Below, in pieces: positions 1 through 9,902 of a stretch of 21,132 nt of DNA. The DNA is taken from positions 1-21,132 of IMG/VR virus record IMGVR_UViG_3300023179_000592. The stretch is one strand, 5' to 3'. Below the pieces are notes generated by a model. That model was not told the origin of the DNA and did no database searches. It saw only the letters and a list, made by a program, of their open reading frames with translations. Made by a program: the position numbers and the translations under genes. The DNA is from a virus. How positions within the stretch are numbered: the first letter of the stretch is position 1; every line of letters starts with the position of its first letter.

Positions 1-1984
1 GGTATGCCATGCACTTTAGTTTTTCGGGGTGAATAAGCGTGTGTACCGAACCCAAGAATTCGGTTTCAAACTCGGTACGGAACTGCTCTTCGCTGGTGTT
101 GGAGATGGTTTGCTTTTTCCACTCTTCGTCACGACCGGGCACATCGCTCCAGTGTACTTCAATAGGGTAGTACTCGTTCTTGCCTTCTTCGCCTGCCCGT
201 TTGTTGGCATTTACCCATATGCGGTAAAACATGTTCAAGCCCTTTGGCGTTGACACGATGATTACTTTGGTTTCTTTACCGCTGGTAATGGTTGGATACA
301 CGGACGAGAAGAACTCTTCAGCCACATTCTGCGGAACATACGCAAACTCGTCAAGCATTATACAATTATGAACTTCTATTCCGTTTGCATAAAACGCATG
401 AGTCTCTTGCACATCTAATAAATCATAGACATCGGTTTTCACATTACTTTCAACAGACACAACAGGAAGAATGGAATTGTCGCAAACCACAAGATGCCCA
501 GCAGACAAAGAACCAGCAGCAACAAAACCATAACCATCAACAAGTATTTTGTGATCTTGAGTGCATACTATTTTTCTGTCAGGCAGATTTACGCTGATGG
601 TGTGTTGTGAATAAGTTTTGCTTATTCCTTTGAATGGTCGGAACCCTTTACTGGTAAGTACTTCCCATCTACCATTTTCATTCCACGATTCCAAGCACCT
701 CCCTGTTTGGCTATTCGTGCTTTTGCTGCATTGCTCATTTTCTTTTTTGCTTCTTCGCTTCGTTTCATTCCACGATGTTTCTCTGCTGTTTTTCTTATTT
801 TCTCTGGATTCTTGTTTATTTTGTCTGAATGTTCTTTTGTTTTCGGTTTGCCCTTTAGCCCCATAGATATTTTTCGACAAATATCCTGACTCTTCTTTGT
901 CCCAACAAGACGACCACGATTCGCAGCAGATATCAACTTTCTCGCATTTTCTGATAGGGGTCTTCCTTTGCTTGCTTTTGACATTTTCAATTTTGTTTCT
1001 TCTGAGTGTTTTTTCCCCATTCTCATAATTCGCCTTGCTTCCGAATACTCTGTCATAACGGTTTTCTTTTGTTGATCTGTCATTTTCACCATCTGACCCT
1101 GACGACCAGTTACCATACGAAAATGAGCATGAACCATTTTGGATTTTTCCACACCACTCAAAAACTTCGTCAAAAGTTTGTGAGCCAACAAATGTTCTCT
1201 TACTGTTAGTTTCACTAAATTGGTCTTTTCGTTTGTGCCCCCCAAAGATTGGGGAATTATGTGATGACTCTCCGTATAGACCGATGTTTCCAAAACTCTC
1301 TTCTGAGCATTCTCCATTATCGAAAAATACCAATTCTTGTATTTGTTGTTCGTCATCTCCATAAACATATTTAGTCTTTCTAGACGAGTTAGCAAAGAAA
1401 CTTTCAATACTAATATCAAAAATAGTTCCATTAGTAGAATCTCGCAGAGTAATAATAGAATCTCCACTTATGCAGTTATACGAACCGCCACGAACAGCAG
1501 ATGATGAAGTGGCTGCTGCAAGCACTTTGGAACCGTTCTCTAACACGATTGAACCCTTGTTCCACTCGACTACACCCTGCTGCAACCATATGGGCAAGTA
1601 TTCATACGCTAGTTTCAAGCGTCCCAGTAGTTCACGGGCTGTGGCTAGTTTGTTAGCCAAGATTGCCACACTCATGCTTTGGTTGAACAGGATATAGTGC
1701 AACAAGAACGAAATCATGGTTGTGGACTTGCCGCTCTGACGAGGCATCTTGCAGATCACGAAGCGGTTCTTGTGAACGGCTTGGATCATATCCTCTTGGA
1801 ATTCATAAGGCTCAAACGGCACCAAGCCTTTATCCAGCGACACAATTTTTACATAGTTCTTGATGAAATACAGCGGATCTTGAGAGCACTTTACATACTC
1901 TTCAATCTGCTTTTCAGAAAAATTTATCTTTACGCCTTCTGCTTTTAGATTGGCGTTTCCAAGATATTTTTGACTTTTAGTCAC
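1..1984 (-). CDS. 17: Terminase large subunit (gp17/TerL) precursor containing an intein; 3' end beyond window
   Basis: ATPase/nuclease of the DNA-packaging motor. The frame opens at GTG (1984-1982), just after an in-frame TAG, and overlaps the end of the upstream 103-aa gene by 8 nt (GTGACTAA); AAAGG lies about 9 nt before it. The N-extein is residues 1-170: Walker A PRQSGKST at about 81-88, ending SSAVRGGSYN. The C-extein starts at Cys (364-362) with CIMLDEFAYVP, where IMLDE is Walker B, followed by KVIIVSTPKG (coupling motif). The nuclease domain lies off the left edge. Order and wording match T4-like/cyanophage TerL as I remember it. Between the exteins is a 370-codon intein in the same frame, and I read no stop from 1984 to position 1. 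Identity is certain; the start codon is likely. Confidence 0.95.
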   Translation of the reverse strand, partial: MTKSQKYLGNANLKAEGVKINFSEKQIEEYVKCSQDPLYFIKNYVKIVSLDKGLVPFEPYEFQEDMIQAVHKNRFVICKMPRQSGKSTTMISFLLHYILFNQSMSVAILANKLATARELLGRLKLAYEYLPIWLQQGVVEWNKGSIVLENGSKVLAAATSSSAVRGGSYNCISGDSIITLRDSTNGTIFDISIESFFANSSRKTKYVYGDDEQQIQELVFFDNGECSEESFGNIGLYGESSHNSPIFGGHKRKDQFSETNSKRTFVGSQTFDEVFEWCGKIQNGSCSFSYGNWSSGSDGENDRSTKENRYDRVFGSKANYENGEKTLRRNKIENVKSKQRKTPIRKCEKVDICCESWSSCWDKEESGYLSKNIYGAKGQTENKRTFRQNKQESRENKKNSRETSWNETKRRSKKENEQCSKSTNSQTGRCLESWNENGRWEVLTSKGFRPFKGISKTYSQHTISVNLPDRKIVCTQDHKILVDGYGFVAAGSLSAGHLVVCDNSILPVVSVESNVKTDVYDLLDVQETHAFYANGIEVHNCIMLDEFAYVPQNVAEEFFSSVYPTITSGKETKVIIVSTPKGLNMFYRIWVNANKRAGEEGKNEYYPIEVHWSDVPGRDEEWKKQTISNTSEEQFRTEFETEFLGSVHTLIHPEKLKCMAY
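365..1474 (-). other. TerL intein (370 codons) interrupted between blocks A and B by an out-of-frame endonuclease gene
   Basis: Protein-splicing element in frame with TerL. Block A begins at Cys1 (1474-1472) with CISGDSIITLRD and continues through IFDISIESFF. Block B is IVCTQDHKILVDGYG with TxxH at intein residues 305-308 (562-551), followed by FVAAGSLSAGHLVV. Blocks F/G are VYDLLDVQETHAFYANG and then IEVHN, with penultimate His369 and Asn370 (367-365); the +1 residue is Cys. Removing the nested gene leaves about 125 residues, the size of a mini-intein. The middle (about residues 40-284) is the off-frame reading of the endonuclease gene: a Lys/Glu/Ser/Asn-rich sequence with no recognisable domain, yet no stop. 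The intein frame has no Met codon at all. The splicing motifs make the intein call firm; splicing activity is inferred. Confidence 0.92.
622..1356 (-). CDS. HNH homing endonuclease with NUMOD3 repeats, nested out of frame inside the TerL intein
   Basis: Predicted free-standing DNA endonuclease of 244 aa, expected to cut intein-less TerL alleles and spread the element. It starts NKYKNWYFSIMENA. The HNH core is ESHHIIPQSLGGTNEKTN at about residues 29-46, continuing into LVKLTVREHLLAHKLL. Basic DNA-binding repeats of NUMOD3 type follow: GKKHSEETKLKMSKASKG (about 114-131), a second at about 153-170 and GMKRSEEAKKKMSNA (about 196-210). The frame is +1 relative to TerL/intein. Upstream codons in this frame (to a GTG at 1467) read as the shadow of intein block A, so I start at ATG 1356; ATGs at 1362 and 1368 are alternatives. 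No good ribosome binding site is visible (AGAAAG lies before 1368; GGAG abuts the 1356 ATG). Stop TAA is 624-622. Confidence 0.88.
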   Translation of the reverse strand: MTNNKYKNWYFSIMENAQKRVLETSVYTESHHIIPQSLGGTNEKTNLVKLTVREHLLAHKLLTKFLSGVEKSKMVHAHFRMVTGRQGQMVKMTDQQKKTVMTEYSEARRIMRMGKKHSEETKLKMSKASKGRPLSENARKLISAANRGRLVGTKKSQDICRKISMGLKGKPKTKEHSDKINKNPEKIRKTAEKHRGMKRSEEAKKKMSNAAKARIAKQGGAWNRGMKMVDGKYLPVKGSDHSKE

Positions 1985-3160: not shown

Positions 3161-4021
3161 TTATGCAGTTGGGCCAGTTACCCCATAACTATCAAACCAC
3201 CCCACAGTAACTCCCTTTGCAAGTGTTGCACCGTTTTGGTATTCGTAAATCTTGGCATACGGGGTGTAATCGTATTTGCCTGAACTTGCTCCACTTGGCC
3301 CGCTAATGCCAACAAAAATGTTGCCGTAAAGTCCAGCAGTAGCACCTGCACCTGTCCACCCTGCGGTGTATCCGTTGTCGTAGTAGTCCATGTTCAGCAG
3401 GTTGCTGTTGACTTTGCGAATCTCCGAATAGGATCTTACCGATCCAAAGATGTACGACTTCATGGTGAAATTCAAAGTAAATATAATGCTACGGCGGCTC
3501 TGAAAGTCGCCTTCGTAGTCTTCCTCTGATGACACCGAATTAAGATAAATGGGAACATCTACCTTTTTATTTACTTCATCAAAATTCATCGTGACAGTAA
3601 ACTCTGGAGAAAAATACGGAAGTATCTGTTCTATGATTTGCAGCCCGTCGTCCATGTTTCGGGTGTACACATACAGTCCGAAATCAATATTGTATGGAAC
3701 TTCAGCAAAAGTATACTTGATTCCACTCTTGTCTGAATTACGCAACACATTTCTTTGCAAAGAGTTTCGTTTACGAGCAGGATCGTATACAATTCCCGTG
3801 ATCTCAAAAGCCATACGGGGCAGAATAATTTGATTGGGATTTTGTAGATACGGATCACCTGCCAAACGCACTTTGTATTTTTCTTTGGGTGCGTATGCAA
3901 TAGGCACTTCAATGTATTTGGTTCCACCACTCTGTGTGCGAGATATCTTCATTTGGTTAAAAATGGAACCAAACGCAACCACCATGCGACGAATTGATCC
4001 GTTATAAAACTGCGTAAACAT
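3161..4021 (-). CDS. 15: Tail sheath stabiliser/tail completion protein gp15
   Basis: In T4, gp15 caps the finished tail tube and sheath so it can join the head neck. This 286-aa protein (T4 about 272) opens MFTQFYNGSIRRMVVAFGSI, close to T4 MFGYFYNSSFRR. It carries further family stretches: YIEVPIAYAPKEKYKVRLAG (about 37-56), ILPRMAFEITGIVYDPARKR, and DDGLQIIEQILPYFSPEFTV. The C-terminal 70 residues are Gly/Ser/Ala-rich (GISGPSGASSG, GVTGPTA) and unlike T4. The ATG shares one base with the gp14 TGA (TGATG), indicating translational coupling. Stop TAA is at 3163-3161. Confidence 0.93.
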   Translation of the reverse strand: MFTQFYNGSIRRMVVAFGSIFNQMKISRTQSGGTKYIEVPIAYAPKEKYKVRLAGDPYLQNPNQIILPRMAFEITGIVYDPARKRNSLQRNVLRNSDKSGIKYTFAEVPYNIDFGLYVYTRNMDDGLQIIEQILPYFSPEFTVTMNFDEVNKKVDVPIYLNSVSSEEDYEGDFQSRRSIIFTLNFTMKSYIFGSVRSYSEIRKVNSNLLNMDYYDNGYTAGWTGAGATAGLYGNIFVGISGPSGASSGKYDYTPYAKIYEYQNGATLAKGVTVGWFDSYGVTGPTA

Positions 4022-5943: not shown

Positions 5944-6504
5944 TTATCCAACAACCAGTACTGAATAATTATATCCCTCTTTCATATCAATAAGCGGGAA
6001 AGCGGGAGAAGTTGAATATGTGCTAATATGAACATCAAAATAAGTTGTGGTTTTGCTACCTTGCTTTGCCCAGACTATTCCCGTACCTTCCGATGCGTTG
6101 TTTGCTTCTCCATACACACAGTAGTTTGCGTTTGGCATAGGAGTAGAAAATGTAAATCTATATGTGGGGGTACTACCAACAAGAAATCGTGTCACAGAAG
6201 CAATATTTCCACTATTCAAAATAGTCGGGTTTGTGCCAGCAGCATTTGCAAGCACATAACAAAATGCTCTTGCACCAAATAGCGGAGCGGTTCCACTTGG
6301 AGCAGCAAATGTGGCATCGCCAAGAACCATTCCACTACTAGCCTTGATGTTACCAACCACATCCAAAGCGGCAGAAGGGCCAGTAGTTCCAATACCCACA
6401 TTTCCGCCTGCACCTATAACCAACCGATCAGCCTGATTGGTGCGGAAGGTGAGTGCGTCAGAGTCGCTTGGTGGTTGTATAGTTTTGGTTTTGAGTGTGC
6501 TCAT
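5944..6504 (-). CDS. Short fibre/adhesin protein, 186 aa (MSTLKT family)
   Basis: Probable receptor-binding fibre component. It begins MSTLKTKTIQPPSDSDALTF, the start module shared with the 333- and 428-aa neighbours, followed by RLVIGAGGNVGIGTTGPSAA (about 28-47), a motif common in trimeric fibre shafts. The C-terminal about 110 residues (from GARAFCYV) look like a compact beta domain, possibly a lectin-type tip (YRFTFSTPMPNANYCVYGEA). There is no S74 chaperone. It begins 12 nt after the stop of the 428-aa gene with no clear Shine-Dalgarno, so it may depend on coupling. It is the last gene of the fibre cluster. Confidence 0.8.
   Translation of the reverse strand: MSTLKTKTIQPPSDSDALTFRTNQADRLVIGAGGNVGIGTTGPSAALDVVGNIKASSGMVLGDATFAAPSGTAPLFGARAFCYVLANAAGTNPTILNSGNIASVTRFLVGSTPTYRFTFSTPMPNANYCVYGEANNASEGTGIVWAKQGSKTTTYFDVHISTYSTSPAFPLIDMKEGYNYSVLVVG
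6377..6408 (-). repeat. 32-bp direct repeat, copy 1 (GGNVGIGTTGP coding)
   Basis: Identical to 8353-8384 by eye. It encodes GGNVGIGTTGP within the 186-aa fibre gene; the other copy is in the 333-aa gene. The same motif in two fibres at exact DNA identity suggests recent duplication or exchange. Confidence 0.85.
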
Positions 6505-6516
6505 GGGTGTTTTGCT

Positions 6517-7803
6517 TTATAGTTCTGCGGAAAGATCAATTCCAGCCTGTGCATTAGCAATGATTTGAAATCCGCCAGTACTTGTTACTTTGACAGAAAT
6601 ATACCCATTTGTTGGACTTGCAGCGACAAGTCCACCACCAGTAGGAATGTAACAATTGCTAAGAGTAAGACTAGAATAATATGTTGTTGATGGCGTTATC
6701 CTCATAGGAGAGAAATTAAAAGTCTGTACACATCCAGCATTTGTTTCATTATAACCGGCATAATTAAAGTAAATAAGCCGTTGAAAATACCTAGAACACA
6801 ACGCTTGCTCAACTTGATGCGGTCGTAATTCAAATGGAGTAGCAACACTGCCTAATTCCCATTGAACTCCAGTAATATCCAAATATCCACCCGAAAATCC
6901 TGCTATTTGTACACCTGTCCCGTCAGTATACGGGGAAAATCCGGCATATGCCCCACTTCTTGTTTGCCATGTGTTTCGTGTTCCGTAACCACTTAGACCA
7001 GCACCAATATTGAATCCTAAATACGCAAACCCGTGATTTATTCCGTTTATATTTGGCCCACCACCAATTCCACTGTCTATTGCAGAATTATAATTCCATG
7101 CTCCACTAGAAGAATCAGTATCACCGGGAATTGTCACAGATTTATATTCCCATGTGTTTGCGGAATTTATGGTGTACGGAAACAAATACCCTCTGGTTCC
7201 AGTACTATATGATGATACATTTCCTTCAAATATTCCTGTTCGGTTTGATCGTGCCCAAAAAGACACAGTGGTTGTTTTTGCTGTGGATTTACCGTAGTCA
7301 AAATCGGCAATATTAGACGCTTCGATTGGCTGAAAAATAGTAGACACAGAAGCATTGTTGGCAAATTGTGCTGTTGCTCCACTCAAAATTCGTGTATACG
7401 AATTAAATCCCGGTGGGGGTGATGCTGTAACACCCCCAATAAACCAAAAAGTTATACCGGGAGAACGCTGAAAATACCACATATCATAAGTTTTATTAGT
7501 GGTTTGTGATGTTATGTTAACAGTTCCCATAGTCATTCCAAAACCATTAAAAACGGGATTGGTTGTAATTGCTCGTTGATTTATCCGCATGTCACCGTTG
7601 ATTATGCGGTTTCTAAAAGTGAAAGGACTGCTCATGGCTACGGTGCCGTTTACAAAAACCGTTCCAGCAAAAGATGAGGTTGCACCAGAACAGATTCCAC
7701 CGGGAAAAGTGGCACCCTGTGTAAACACCATGTTTCCGTCAACGGTGATGCTGCCTGCGGTTGAGCCTACGGGTTCTATTCTGTTGGTTTTTAGTGTGCT
7801 CAT
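6517..7803 (-). CDS. Tail fibre/adhesin with jelly-roll carbohydrate-binding-like region, 428 aa
   Basis: Probable host-recognition fibre. Order: start module MSTLKTNRIEPVGSTAGSIT; a short shaft (GNMVFTQGATFPGGICSGAT); then FRNRIINGDMRINQRA (about residues 62-77), which marks a widespread class of phage fibre C-terminal domains. That domain continues through YDMWYF, VSFWARSNRTG and ITGVQWELGSVATPFELRPH to ALCSRYFQRL near residue 340, a beta-sandwich pattern of sugar-binding type. The last about 90 residues form a further beta region ending QAGIDLSAEL. No S74 domain. It begins 8 nt after the 333-aa gene with no visible Shine-Dalgarno. The ligand is unknown. Confidence 0.85.
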   Translation of the reverse strand: MSTLKTNRIEPVGSTAGSITVDGNMVFTQGATFPGGICSGATSSFAGTVFVNGTVAMSSPFTFRNRIINGDMRINQRAITTNPVFNGFGMTMGTVNITSQTTNKTYDMWYFQRSPGITFWFIGGVTASPPPGFNSYTRILSGATAQFANNASVSTIFQPIEASNIADFDYGKSTAKTTTVSFWARSNRTGIFEGNVSSYSTGTRGYLFPYTINSANTWEYKSVTIPGDTDSSSGAWNYNSAIDSGIGGGPNINGINHGFAYLGFNIGAGLSGYGTRNTWQTRSGAYAGFSPYTDGTGVQIAGFSGGYLDITGVQWELGSVATPFELRPHQVEQALCSRYFQRLIYFNYAGYNETNAGCVQTFNFSPMRITPSTTYYSSLTLSNCYIPTGGGLVAASPTNGYISVKVTSTGGFQIIANAQAGIDLSAEL

Positions 7804-7811: not shown

Positions 7812-8813
7812 TTATTTAGCCTTCAGTTGTGAGATTTCCGCTGCCTGTGCATCCACGATTGCTTTTAGTTCTTTGATTGCTGCGGTAAGAACAGGAACAA
7901 CTCTAGATAAATCGACTGATTGTGGATTAATATTTCCGTGTTCATCAACTGCGTCTTTTTCTCCTGTGACCGCAAGCGGAACTACTTCCGCAAGTTCGTG
8001 AGCAACAAACCCTTCCCCATAGGAATCATCAATCTTCCATGTATACGACGAAGGTTTCAACATCATAACTCTAGTTAATGCTCCAGTCAAATGTGTTGGA
8101 TTGTTTTTCAACCTATAATCAGAACTTGTACCATAAGTAGTGCTACTGCTGGTTGTTGTGATAAGTCCTACCTGCGTCGTTCCATCCTTGTACATAAATC
8201 TACAAGGATGAGTTGCTGTATCAAGTGAACCCGGTTGTTGTGTGAATTGTATTCCATATCCGTAAGTAGTCGCATATCCTTCAACTAAAAGTTTAGTTTG
8301 GTTATTTGTATTATAAAATCGACCAGTTCCTTTCACATCAAGATCATAAATTGGGCCAGTAGTTCCAATACCCACATTTCCGCCCACAGGATTCAATGCC
8401 AACCCGCGTTGAGTATCGTCGCTGTTTTGTACCTGTAACCACGCAGCCGAAGTGCCTGCGTTTCCAAAAAACAGTGTGATATCGTTTCCACTTGGTTTTA
8501 TAAAAGCATTTGACCGACTACGGGTTCCACTATAATTTCCCTGAACAGGACTCAATACACTTGTATTGGTGTGCACCACATCTAATGCTGTGTATTTGGT
8601 TGATCCAATACCACCACCAACCAAAATTCCACCCTGAAAACGAGTGGTGCTTGAGAAATTCACTTCACCTGCAAAAGTTGTGCCAGTAGTGCTTGCCACC
8701 AGCATTTGCCCGTTGTCTTGAATACGAAACCGCTCTACATCTGCACCTGTTCTAAAAATCAGGTGGTTTCCAATCAGCGTGGGTTGTACCGAATCAGTTT
8801 TTAGTGTGCTCAT
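7812..8813 (-). CDS. Tail fibre protein with C-terminal S74 intramolecular chaperone, 333 aa
   Basis: Trimeric fibre with a self-cleaving folding domain. It starts MSTLKTDSVQPTLIGNHLIF, then has repeated beta-shaft motifs including NPVGGNVGIGTTGPIYDLDV (about 138-157). The C-terminal about 110 residues are a Peptidase_S74/endosialidase-type chaperone: SSDYRLKNNP (about 228-237) carries the Ser/Lys dyad, followed by LKPSSYTWKIDDSYGEGFVA, HELAEVVPLAV, and a terminal coiled coil (LTAAIKELKAIVDAQAAEIS). In this family the chaperone trimerises the fibre and then cuts itself off. AGAGGAAA precedes ATG 8813. It is the only gene of the cluster with this domain. Confidence 0.9.
   Translation of the reverse strand: MSTLKTDSVQPTLIGNHLIFRTGADVERFRIQDNGQMLVASTTGTTFAGEVNFSSTTRFQGGILVGGGIGSTKYTALDVVHTNTSVLSPVQGNYSGTRSRSNAFIKPSGNDITLFFGNAGTSAAWLQVQNSDDTQRGLALNPVGGNVGIGTTGPIYDLDVKGTGRFYNTNNQTKLLVEGYATTYGYGIQFTQQPGSLDTATHPCRFMYKDGTTQVGLITTTSSSTTYGTSSDYRLKNNPTHLTGALTRVMMLKPSSYTWKIDDSYGEGFVAHELAEVVPLAVTGEKDAVDEHGNINPQSVDLSRVVPVLTAAIKELKAIVDAQAAEISQLKAK
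8353..8384 (-). repeat. 32-bp direct repeat, copy 2 (GGNVGIGTTGP coding)
   Basis: Second copy of 6377-6408, inside the S74-bearing fibre gene. Confidence 0.85.
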
Positions 8814-8822
8814 GGTTTCCTC

Positions 8823-9902
8823 TTATAGTATTACCAAACTTCCGCCGGTTTCAACGGTGAGAGTGGCACCTGATGCCACAGTCAAGGTTCCACTCAAGAA
8901 AGCGTTTTCATCGCCTCCAATTGAACCACAAACGCCAGCGGGAACGATTATGTTCTTGTTCACGAAGAATCCGCCGAACGGAATGCGTACATCTCCTGCA
9001 ACTTCTAGTTTTCCGCGAGCAGCACTGGAACCAGTTCCATGTGGAAGAATGCGTGCACCAATGTTTTGTCCAGTAACACCAATTCCTACATTTCCAAGCA
9101 CATACGCACCACCACAAACACCTAATGTGCCTGCACTATAACCTGCGGCAGTGCTGTAGTGGAACAAGAAACTGCTTGTTGCACCGGGTGCGCCGCCCTG
9201 ATTGTACTGAACCTGCGTGTCTGTTCCTGTTACGCCGTCAGCGGCTTTCCAAAACAAGTTTCCAGAACCATCTGTTCCAAGAACCTGACCGTTGCTTCCG
9301 TCACCATTTGGAAGTGTCCATCCCTTTGTAGACGATATTATTTGTGGTGCTTGGAACGAAAGGTAATTTGTATTCGTAGAATCGTATAAACGGAGAGGGG
9401 TACTCTTCAATATTTGCAACTGACCGTATACTCTGGTCAATGCGTTTCCGGTAGTTTCGTTCCCTAAAAACACATTTCCTGCAAAAGTAGCCCCGCCTAC
9501 AACATACAGCGTTCCGGCAGCACACACACCCGATGCAAACCGTGCAATTCCAGAAACATTTAGAGTGGACGCAAGCGTTGTTCCGCCGTTTACCGTCAGG
9601 TTTCCGCCTACGGTTGCACCAGATCCAACCCACAGATTCGCAGTGCTTATTCCGGAAGTAAATCGCAAATACGAAGTAAATGTATGACCCGTGGGCACAG
9701 TTTCCTGTATGAATGCTCTCCATCCACCTGTGTTTCCGTATGTGGCACCGATGGAAGCACTGTCAAGAGCATCGTACACACGCAGTTTGTTCAATTTATA
9801 GATCGCGGTGTTGGTGGTGTCCCTCCAATAATTGAAAGTATCCCCCAATTCTACTTCTGGGATGGTGTATGTGTTTAGGTCTGGTCCTGTGCTGCCGGGC
9901 AT
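8823..9902 (-). CDS. Fibre/structural protein with repetitive beta-rich shaft, 359 aa
   Basis: Probable tail fibre or fibre-attachment protein. The N-terminus (MPGSTGPDLNTYTIPEVELG, then DTFNYWRDTTNTAIYKLNKL) is distinct from the MSTLKT start and may be the virion-docking segment. From about residue 85 the protein is made of short repeats such as LWVGSGATVGGNLTVNGGTT, LYVVGGATFAGNVFLGN and LTVASGATLTVETGGSLVIL, as in beta-helical shafts. WTLPNGDGSNGQVLGTDGSG followed by NLFWKAADG is common in aquatic phage fibres. It is cysteine-bearing in a recurrent GVC context. There is no chaperone domain. It begins 3 nt after the 58-aa gene and 9 nt separate its stop from the next start. Confidence 0.85.
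   Translation of the reverse strand: MPGSTGPDLNTYTIPEVELGDTFNYWRDTTNTAIYKLNKLRVYDALDSASIGATYGNTGGWRAFIQETVPTGHTFTSYLRFTSGISTANLWVGSGATVGGNLTVNGGTTLASTLNVSGIARFASGVCAAGTLYVVGGATFAGNVFLGNETTGNALTRVYGQLQILKSTPLRLYDSTNTNYLSFQAPQIISSTKGWTLPNGDGSNGQVLGTDGSGNLFWKAADGVTGTDTQVQYNQGGAPGATSSFLFHYSTAAGYSAGTLGVCGGAYVLGNVGIGVTGQNIGARILPHGTGSSAARGKLEVAGDVRIPFGGFFVNKNIIVPAGVCGSIGGDENAFLSGTLTVASGATLTVETGGSLVIL

Follow-up and report, generated by a model that had tools for sequence, protein, structure and literature searches.

A TerL intein of T4-like phages whose DNA appears to encode its homing endonuclease in a second reading frame

How can one piece of DNA keep a packaging gene open from end to end and, over much of its length, encode a complete enzyme in another frame? 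This question is raised by IMG/VR record IMGVR_UViG_3300023179_000592, of which positions 1 to 21,132 were analyzed (the window, 21,132 nucleotides). Its gene for the terminase large subunit, TerL, lies on the minus strand, as do all features of the locus given below. The TerL frame, here also called the host frame, is free of stops from GTG 1984 to position 2 at the window edge and passes through an intein of 370 codons (1474-365) that starts CISGDS and ends VHN|C, with Cys1 at 1474-1472, the terminal His-Asn at 370-365 and the +1 Cys at 364-362. Inside the intein there is an open reading frame (ORF) of 244 amino acids plus its stop codon, from ATG 1356 to TAA 622, in the +1 frame relative to TerL. 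An earlier note on this DNA, made from its letters, had described this layout and its coordinates were reproduced. The nested ORF matches the Pfam models NUMOD3 (E=3e-7) and HNH (E=0.001); the HNH score is just below the Pfam cut-off, and seven of eight family members match that model. The HNH catalytic region (1177-1281) reads HHIIPqSLGGtN...nLvkLTvrEHLLAH, its H/H/N/H residues being invariant in A3, and the DNA-binding NUMOD3 motif (PF07460, residues 114-131) lies at 964-1017. Both motifs of an HNH/NUMOD3 homing endonuclease are therefore present. We consider it highly probable that the locus is a mobile TerL intein with an HNH/NUMOD3 homing endonuclease encoded, in the +1 frame, by the DNA of its internal linker.

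The absence of host-frame stops is the most striking property of the endonuclease gene. Its 245 codons include 88 that start with AA, AG or GA and 58 that end in T, exactly as the earlier note had counted by hand, and the note's estimate of about 20 stops by random pairing was close to what the exact null gives. Shuffling the codon order yielded a mean of 20.9 host-frame stops (minimum 8) and synonymous shuffling a mean of 19.9 (minimum 9), and zero stops, the number observed, was reached in none of 20,000 replicates of either kind. Redrawing the codons from the phage's own usage gave a mean of 22.5, again with no replicate at zero (0 of 5,000). The third frame has 25 stops, as expected, where the note had reported at least six. 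No stop-free +1 frame was found among the other window genes tested.

The same layout occurs in viral metagenomes, where the family was gathered by scans with endonuclease and intein-C alignments. At least 19 divergent nested lineages were identified: a set of 15, any two of which have at most about 83% nucleotide identity over the intein, and four more divergent ones (L168, L169, L170 and L187). In all 19 the order is TerL-N, the N-terminal part of the intein (IntN), the nested endonuclease, the C-terminal part (IntC) and TerL-C, the host frame is unbroken, exceeding 900 codons in several lineages, and the offset of the endonuclease is always +1. In each lineage the endonuclease gene is free of host-frame stops, against 11-20 expected, and zero never occurred in 2,000 synonymous shuffles for every lineage. 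The earlier note had proposed homologues as a check on the open frame and had named three findings that would refute its reading: a sequencing indel that puts the endonuclease in frame with the intein, frequent TerL-frame stops in homologues, and shuffles in which zero stops is common. None of the three holds. Two of the loci, L001 and L002, gave a gap-free alignment of 1974 bp (83% identity), and both frames are open in each; since independent contigs are gap-free and doubly open, and the layout recurs in more divergent lineages, an indel is excluded. In L001 the C-extein runs on to a stop, which gives an open frame of 920 codons. The form belongs to a family of T4-like phages and is carried by TerL, the DNA-packaging motor gene. 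On the endonuclease tree the nested label requires just two changes, and the arrangement is probably of single origin. A scan of bacterial and archaeal genomes gave no relatives of the endonuclease family, and among named phages only enzymes about 30-37% identical to it turned up.

Is the host frame selected to stay open, as the earlier note had suggested? Codon usage in nested genes indicates that it is. Where a pyrimidine-ending codon precedes AA, AG or GA, it ends in T in 0 cases and in C in 295, as against 936 T and 239 C in other contexts (p about 3e-161). In non-nested relatives of the endonuclease (L084, L086 and L146-L156) the corresponding numbers by context are 389 T : 89 C versus 528 : 116 (p = 0.8), and the number of host-frame-type stops is that predicted by shuffles. 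That T is never found at stop-forming junctions in nested genes, while non-nested genes show no bias, supports selection for an open host frame. The shuffles and the unbiased relatives also led us to reject chance or an artefact of the codon mix. Because the host frame need only lack stops, selection can remove the junctions NNT|AA, NNT|AG and NNT|GA through the use of other endonuclease codons.

The two frames appear to be selected in different ways. For the endonuclease frame, the ratio of nonsynonymous to synonymous substitution rates (dN/dS) was 0.08-0.23 in every pair, and for IntN and IntC it was 0.07-0.48, which points to purifying selection on the ends of the intein as well. Where it overlaps the endonuclease gene, the host frame gave 0.8-2.2. 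We compared this with a simulation in which an equal number of silent endonuclease changes was placed at random and host stops alone were forbidden. The host-frame identity between the window and L001 was 0.588 versus a null of 0.584 +- 0.010, and three other pairs were also within the null. Without the no-stop rule the same silent changes created a mean of 7.5 host stops, and none of 400 runs was free of them. As the host-frame identity matches the simulation in which only stops were forbidden, the linker residues seem free to vary unless they become a stop, and selection on the linker amino acids was rejected because the identity equals this endonuclease-plus-no-stop null. As far as sequence comparison can tell, the endonuclease frame is under purifying selection and the overlapped host-frame residues are constrained to be non-stop, nothing more.

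The insert itself has the features of an intein. It is in frame with both exteins, and close TerL relatives lack it exactly, reading RGGSYN|CIMLDEF. The N-extein (1475-1984, 170 codons with a GTG start) corresponds to the Terminase_6N or Walker A part (Pfam PF03237, E=9e-16) and its RGGSYN abuts Cys1. The C-extein (2-364, CIMLDEFAY...) is the Walker B side, lies in the same frame and is cut by the window edge. Its +1 Cys nucleophile (362-364) is Cys in every nested locus, and in 9 intein-free TerL matches reading RGGSYNCIMLDEF. Among 16 aligned inteins Cys1 is invariant, the T..H pair of block B and the +1 Cys are conserved, and the catalytic residues as a whole are invariant or nearly so; the intein C-terminus is HN, KN, SN, AN or HQ, the last residue being Asn but Gln in L140/L142, L169 and L170. 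The folded N-part (residues 1-32, 1379-1474, CISGDSIITLRD) comprises Cys1, block A, beta strands and helix alpha1, with an AlphaFold2 confidence score (predicted local distance difference test, pLDDT) of about 85-94. The folded C-part (residues 261-370, 365-694) contains block B with CTxDH, blocks F and G and the terminal His-Asn, with pLDDT mostly 85-95 from residue 271. Between them, the host-frame linker (residues 33-260, 695-1378) spans most of the endonuclease gene without stops; in the model residues 1-31 and 261-370 are ordered (mostly pLDDT 85-95) and residues 32-260 are predicted to be disordered (pLDDT <50). The top Foldseek match of the model was the VidaL intein 6vgv (6e-8) and the leading matches are inteins. 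A profile of the intein C-part searched against the PDB retrieved the DnaX mini-intein (1e-10), NrdJ-1, gp41-1 and VidaL, and two NCBIfam intein models match 14/16 and 11/16 members. The catalytic residues, the Hint fold and the precise empty alleles argue that the insert is an intein. The endonuclease is inserted at S2, the site following helix alpha1 that is also the natural split site of AceL-TerL and GOS-TerL, whereas VidaL breaks at S1 (PMC13014065).

From these features we infer splicing, internal initiation and DNA cleavage, which could be combined as follows. Ribosomes in the TerL frame would read through TerL-N, intein-N, an unstructured linker of about 230 residues, intein-C and TerL-C; the Hint halves would then fold together with the linker looped out at the atypical 'S2' position, and cis splicing would restore TerL. 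Ribosomes that start at the internal ATG in the +1 frame would make free endonuclease, and this would cut intein-less TerL alleles, into which the whole element would be copied. In the lineages examined there is an in-frame ATG within a few codons of a conserved NKYK motif, and in the window positions 1362 and 1368 hold further in-frame ATGs. A tentative T4-late-promoter-like element (ACTAAATA) was located at 1368-1375, shortly upstream of the endonuclease start, the family consensus being near TATAAATA. A match to TATAAATA of at least 7/8 was present in 14/15 lineages versus 9.2 in the synonymous null (P about 0.001), a difference confounded by AT-richness.

Several observations do not favor this interpretation. 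The late-promoter-like motif is weak and in the window there is only a partial match, and a Shine-Dalgarno sequence was looked for before the endonuclease start but none was convincing. The window intein scores 15.0 and 15.3 bits with the NCBIfam models, less than their curated thresholds of 15.6 and 24.5 bits, respectively, and Foldseek places the whole endonuclease model without confidence, with weak HNH matches alone.

The endonuclease could instead be made as a fusion to IntN through +1 ribosomal frameshifting, which we regard as unlikely. In many lineages, the window included, its frame has 18-37 stop-free codons upstream of the start, and L084/L085 have an in-frame fusion of IntN and enzyme. 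However, the endonuclease frame is open for just 2 codons before the ATG in L089 and 4 in L129, so frameshifting is improbable as a general route, and the in-frame ATG near the NKYK motif also argues against it. Less probable still is a fractured gene with a split intein, in which TerL-N/IntN, the endonuclease and IntC/TerL-C would be made as separate proteins and the TerL frame would be open only incidentally. The insertion point is indeed the S2 site of the naturally split AceL-TerL and GOS-TerL (PMC13014065), and true fractured TerL loci are nearby in sequence space (L006, L061, L084/L085 and phage kaaroe). Yet these loci have stops, whereas in the 19 nested lineages the parts are not separated by any stop, and only nested copies avoid stops. 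A reading in which the endonuclease frame is a defunct remnant and the intein frame alone matters is very improbable: members without endonuclease (L166 and L167) imply that its loss is tolerated, but the endonuclease dN/dS is low in every pair (0.08-0.23) over host-frame residues that are unconstrained, and no full-length copy has a premature stop. We give just as little weight to removal of the insert at the RNA level, as a group I or II intron with the host frame unread. HNH/NUMOD3 enzymes typically occur in group I introns, but an Rfam search for a conserved ribozyme fold gave no match at E<=1, intein splicing motifs are conserved at both ends and stops are avoided within the insert. Finally, a single contig edge might in principle carry an indel, though no result supports this, and chance or a sequencing or assembly error is close to inconceivable given relatives at 83% identity that align without gaps and have both frames open, 19 lineages and p about 3e-161.

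Returning to a mobile intein with its enzyme encoded in the +1 frame, several loci are consistent with a homing cycle. The elements of L131 and L132/L134 are 97-98% identical while their TerL exteins are 70-72% identical, and in L140/L142 the element is 94% and the exteins 76-78% identical. The step in identity coincides with the element edges, and this contrast indicates that elements have moved as a unit between diverged TerL genes. L166 (370-777) and L167 (3811-4258) carry contiguous mini-inteins of this family without endonuclease. The L167 scar keeps the first ~20 endonuclease codons, followed by a host-frame joint to intein-C, and its DNA read out of frame encodes M-K-M-I-K-N-K-Y-K-S-W-Y-F-S-L-M. 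L167 has the form that a homing cycle would be expected to reach on degenerating, and in it the host frame alone is preserved. L144 (2185-2889) and L145 (2123-2827) have a freestanding endonuclease copy between terS and an intein-free terL. They branch within the nested clade (98/99-supported fork) and have 10 host-frame stops versus 15.7 expected (P 0.01), as might an escaped copy losing the no-stop constraint; this is suggestive only, because the branch is long.

How does this arrangement relate to known systems? The earlier note had stated that it is neither an in-frame fusion nor a pair of split halves, which stands, and had known of no precedent; the ShiLan domain is a close one, although it is not an intein. 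ShiLan is an out-of-frame HNH endonuclease within the methylase gene of a mycobacteriophage; the methylase frame remains open, and there is no splicing domain (Arsenault, Gosselin, Gogarten 2025, PMC11855218). The ShiLan domain and the Pacc40 insertion resemble the TerL element in having an out-of-frame HNH in a phage gene with the host frame open through the insert and its translation predicted to be disordered or of poor confidence, and the distribution of ShiLan is that of a mobile element (PMC11855218). In contrast, the ShiLan insert is taken to stay part of the methylase, as a loop (PMC11855218), whereas in TerL the overlap lies within a Hint-fold intein with conserved splice residues, and stop avoidance has been quantified. 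This paper was the sole relevant precedent that we found in the literature; no out-of-frame endonuclease within an intein was found, in a search that did not cover the preprint 10.1101/2025.01.02.630785 on the non-canonical architecture of inteins in actinobacteriophages, which PMC11855218 cites for overlapping frames.

Canonical maxi-inteins are likewise contiguous, mobile, located in a conserved motor motif and equipped with their own nuclease. They have this nuclease in frame, between an N-part of ~100-120 residues and a C-part of 35-50, whereas the overprinted TerL intein has it at the N-terminal S2 site and, in all nested loci, in a different frame. Fractured genes, reportedly treated by Dassa et al. 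in 2009, a study that PMC13014065 and PMC6892783 cite, also have an endonuclease gene between intein halves and unfused to the intein, but there the host gene is split into separate frames, while in the overprinted TerL it is unbroken (0 stops in 19 lineages) and overlapped by the enzyme gene. AceL-TerL, GOS-TerL and VidaL share the short IntN and long IntC, and the first two break after helix alpha1; they are two polypeptides that splice in trans, whereas the overprinted element is one continuous frame that would splice in cis. MobD and its relatives, HNH/NUMOD3 enzymes of T4-like phages, are ~30-37% identical over most of the enzyme but are annotated as separate genes, and the non-nested relatives examined show no host-frame stop avoidance.

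It is likely that the overprinted intein, probably of one origin and present in at least 19 phage lineages, is a third and previously undescribed partnership of intein and endonuclease, in which one frame is selected for protein sequence and the other only against stops. It would be a third way for an intein to carry a homing endonuclease, beside in-frame fusion and placement between split halves. As it shares its site with naturally split TerL inteins, it could be a route between contiguous and fractured genes. The family also offers a clean natural experiment on overlapping genes, a sequence-selected frame against one that is only kept free of stops, with internal controls in the third frame, the non-nested relatives, the probable escaped copy and the deletion scar. 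The apparent freedom of the spacer residues to vary could make the intein useful as a splicing scaffold that tolerates a large insertion. Searching for stop avoidance in one frame could reveal hidden endonucleases in apparently contiguous phage inteins.

Fractured and other forms were seen alongside the nested loci. A different TerL intein, located between ..TEFE and CEFLG.., is fractured by an out-of-frame GIY-YIG-like endonuclease, with TerL-frame stops, in L006 (1051-2451) and L061 (1686-3463). The TerL gene of L089 has the overprinted form at one site and, downstream, a second and apparently fractured-type intein at another (3557-3953; ..EFN|CVSGDTLITIKEE.., then a stop). In L084 (1079-1915) and L085 (244-1080) a related endonuclease is in frame with IntN and IntC is in another frame, a split form adjoining the overprinted clade. 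The cultured RB49-like coliphage kaaroe (L160, 676-3787) has TerL broken near Walker B into an IntN-endonuclease-like fusion and a separate IntC-TerL ORF, which are annotated as 'hypothetical protein' and 'terminase large subunit'.

Two observations concern other genes of the window, all on the minus strand. Three consecutive genes (5944-6504, 6517-7803 and 7812-8813) share an initial MSTLKT motif, which suggests duplicated tail-fibre-like modules with a common N-terminal tag. The gene at 8823-9902 has 7 stops in its +1 frame versus 20 by codon shuffle, with an ORF of 140 amino acids at 9301-9723, and this low count probably reflects its repetitive composition.
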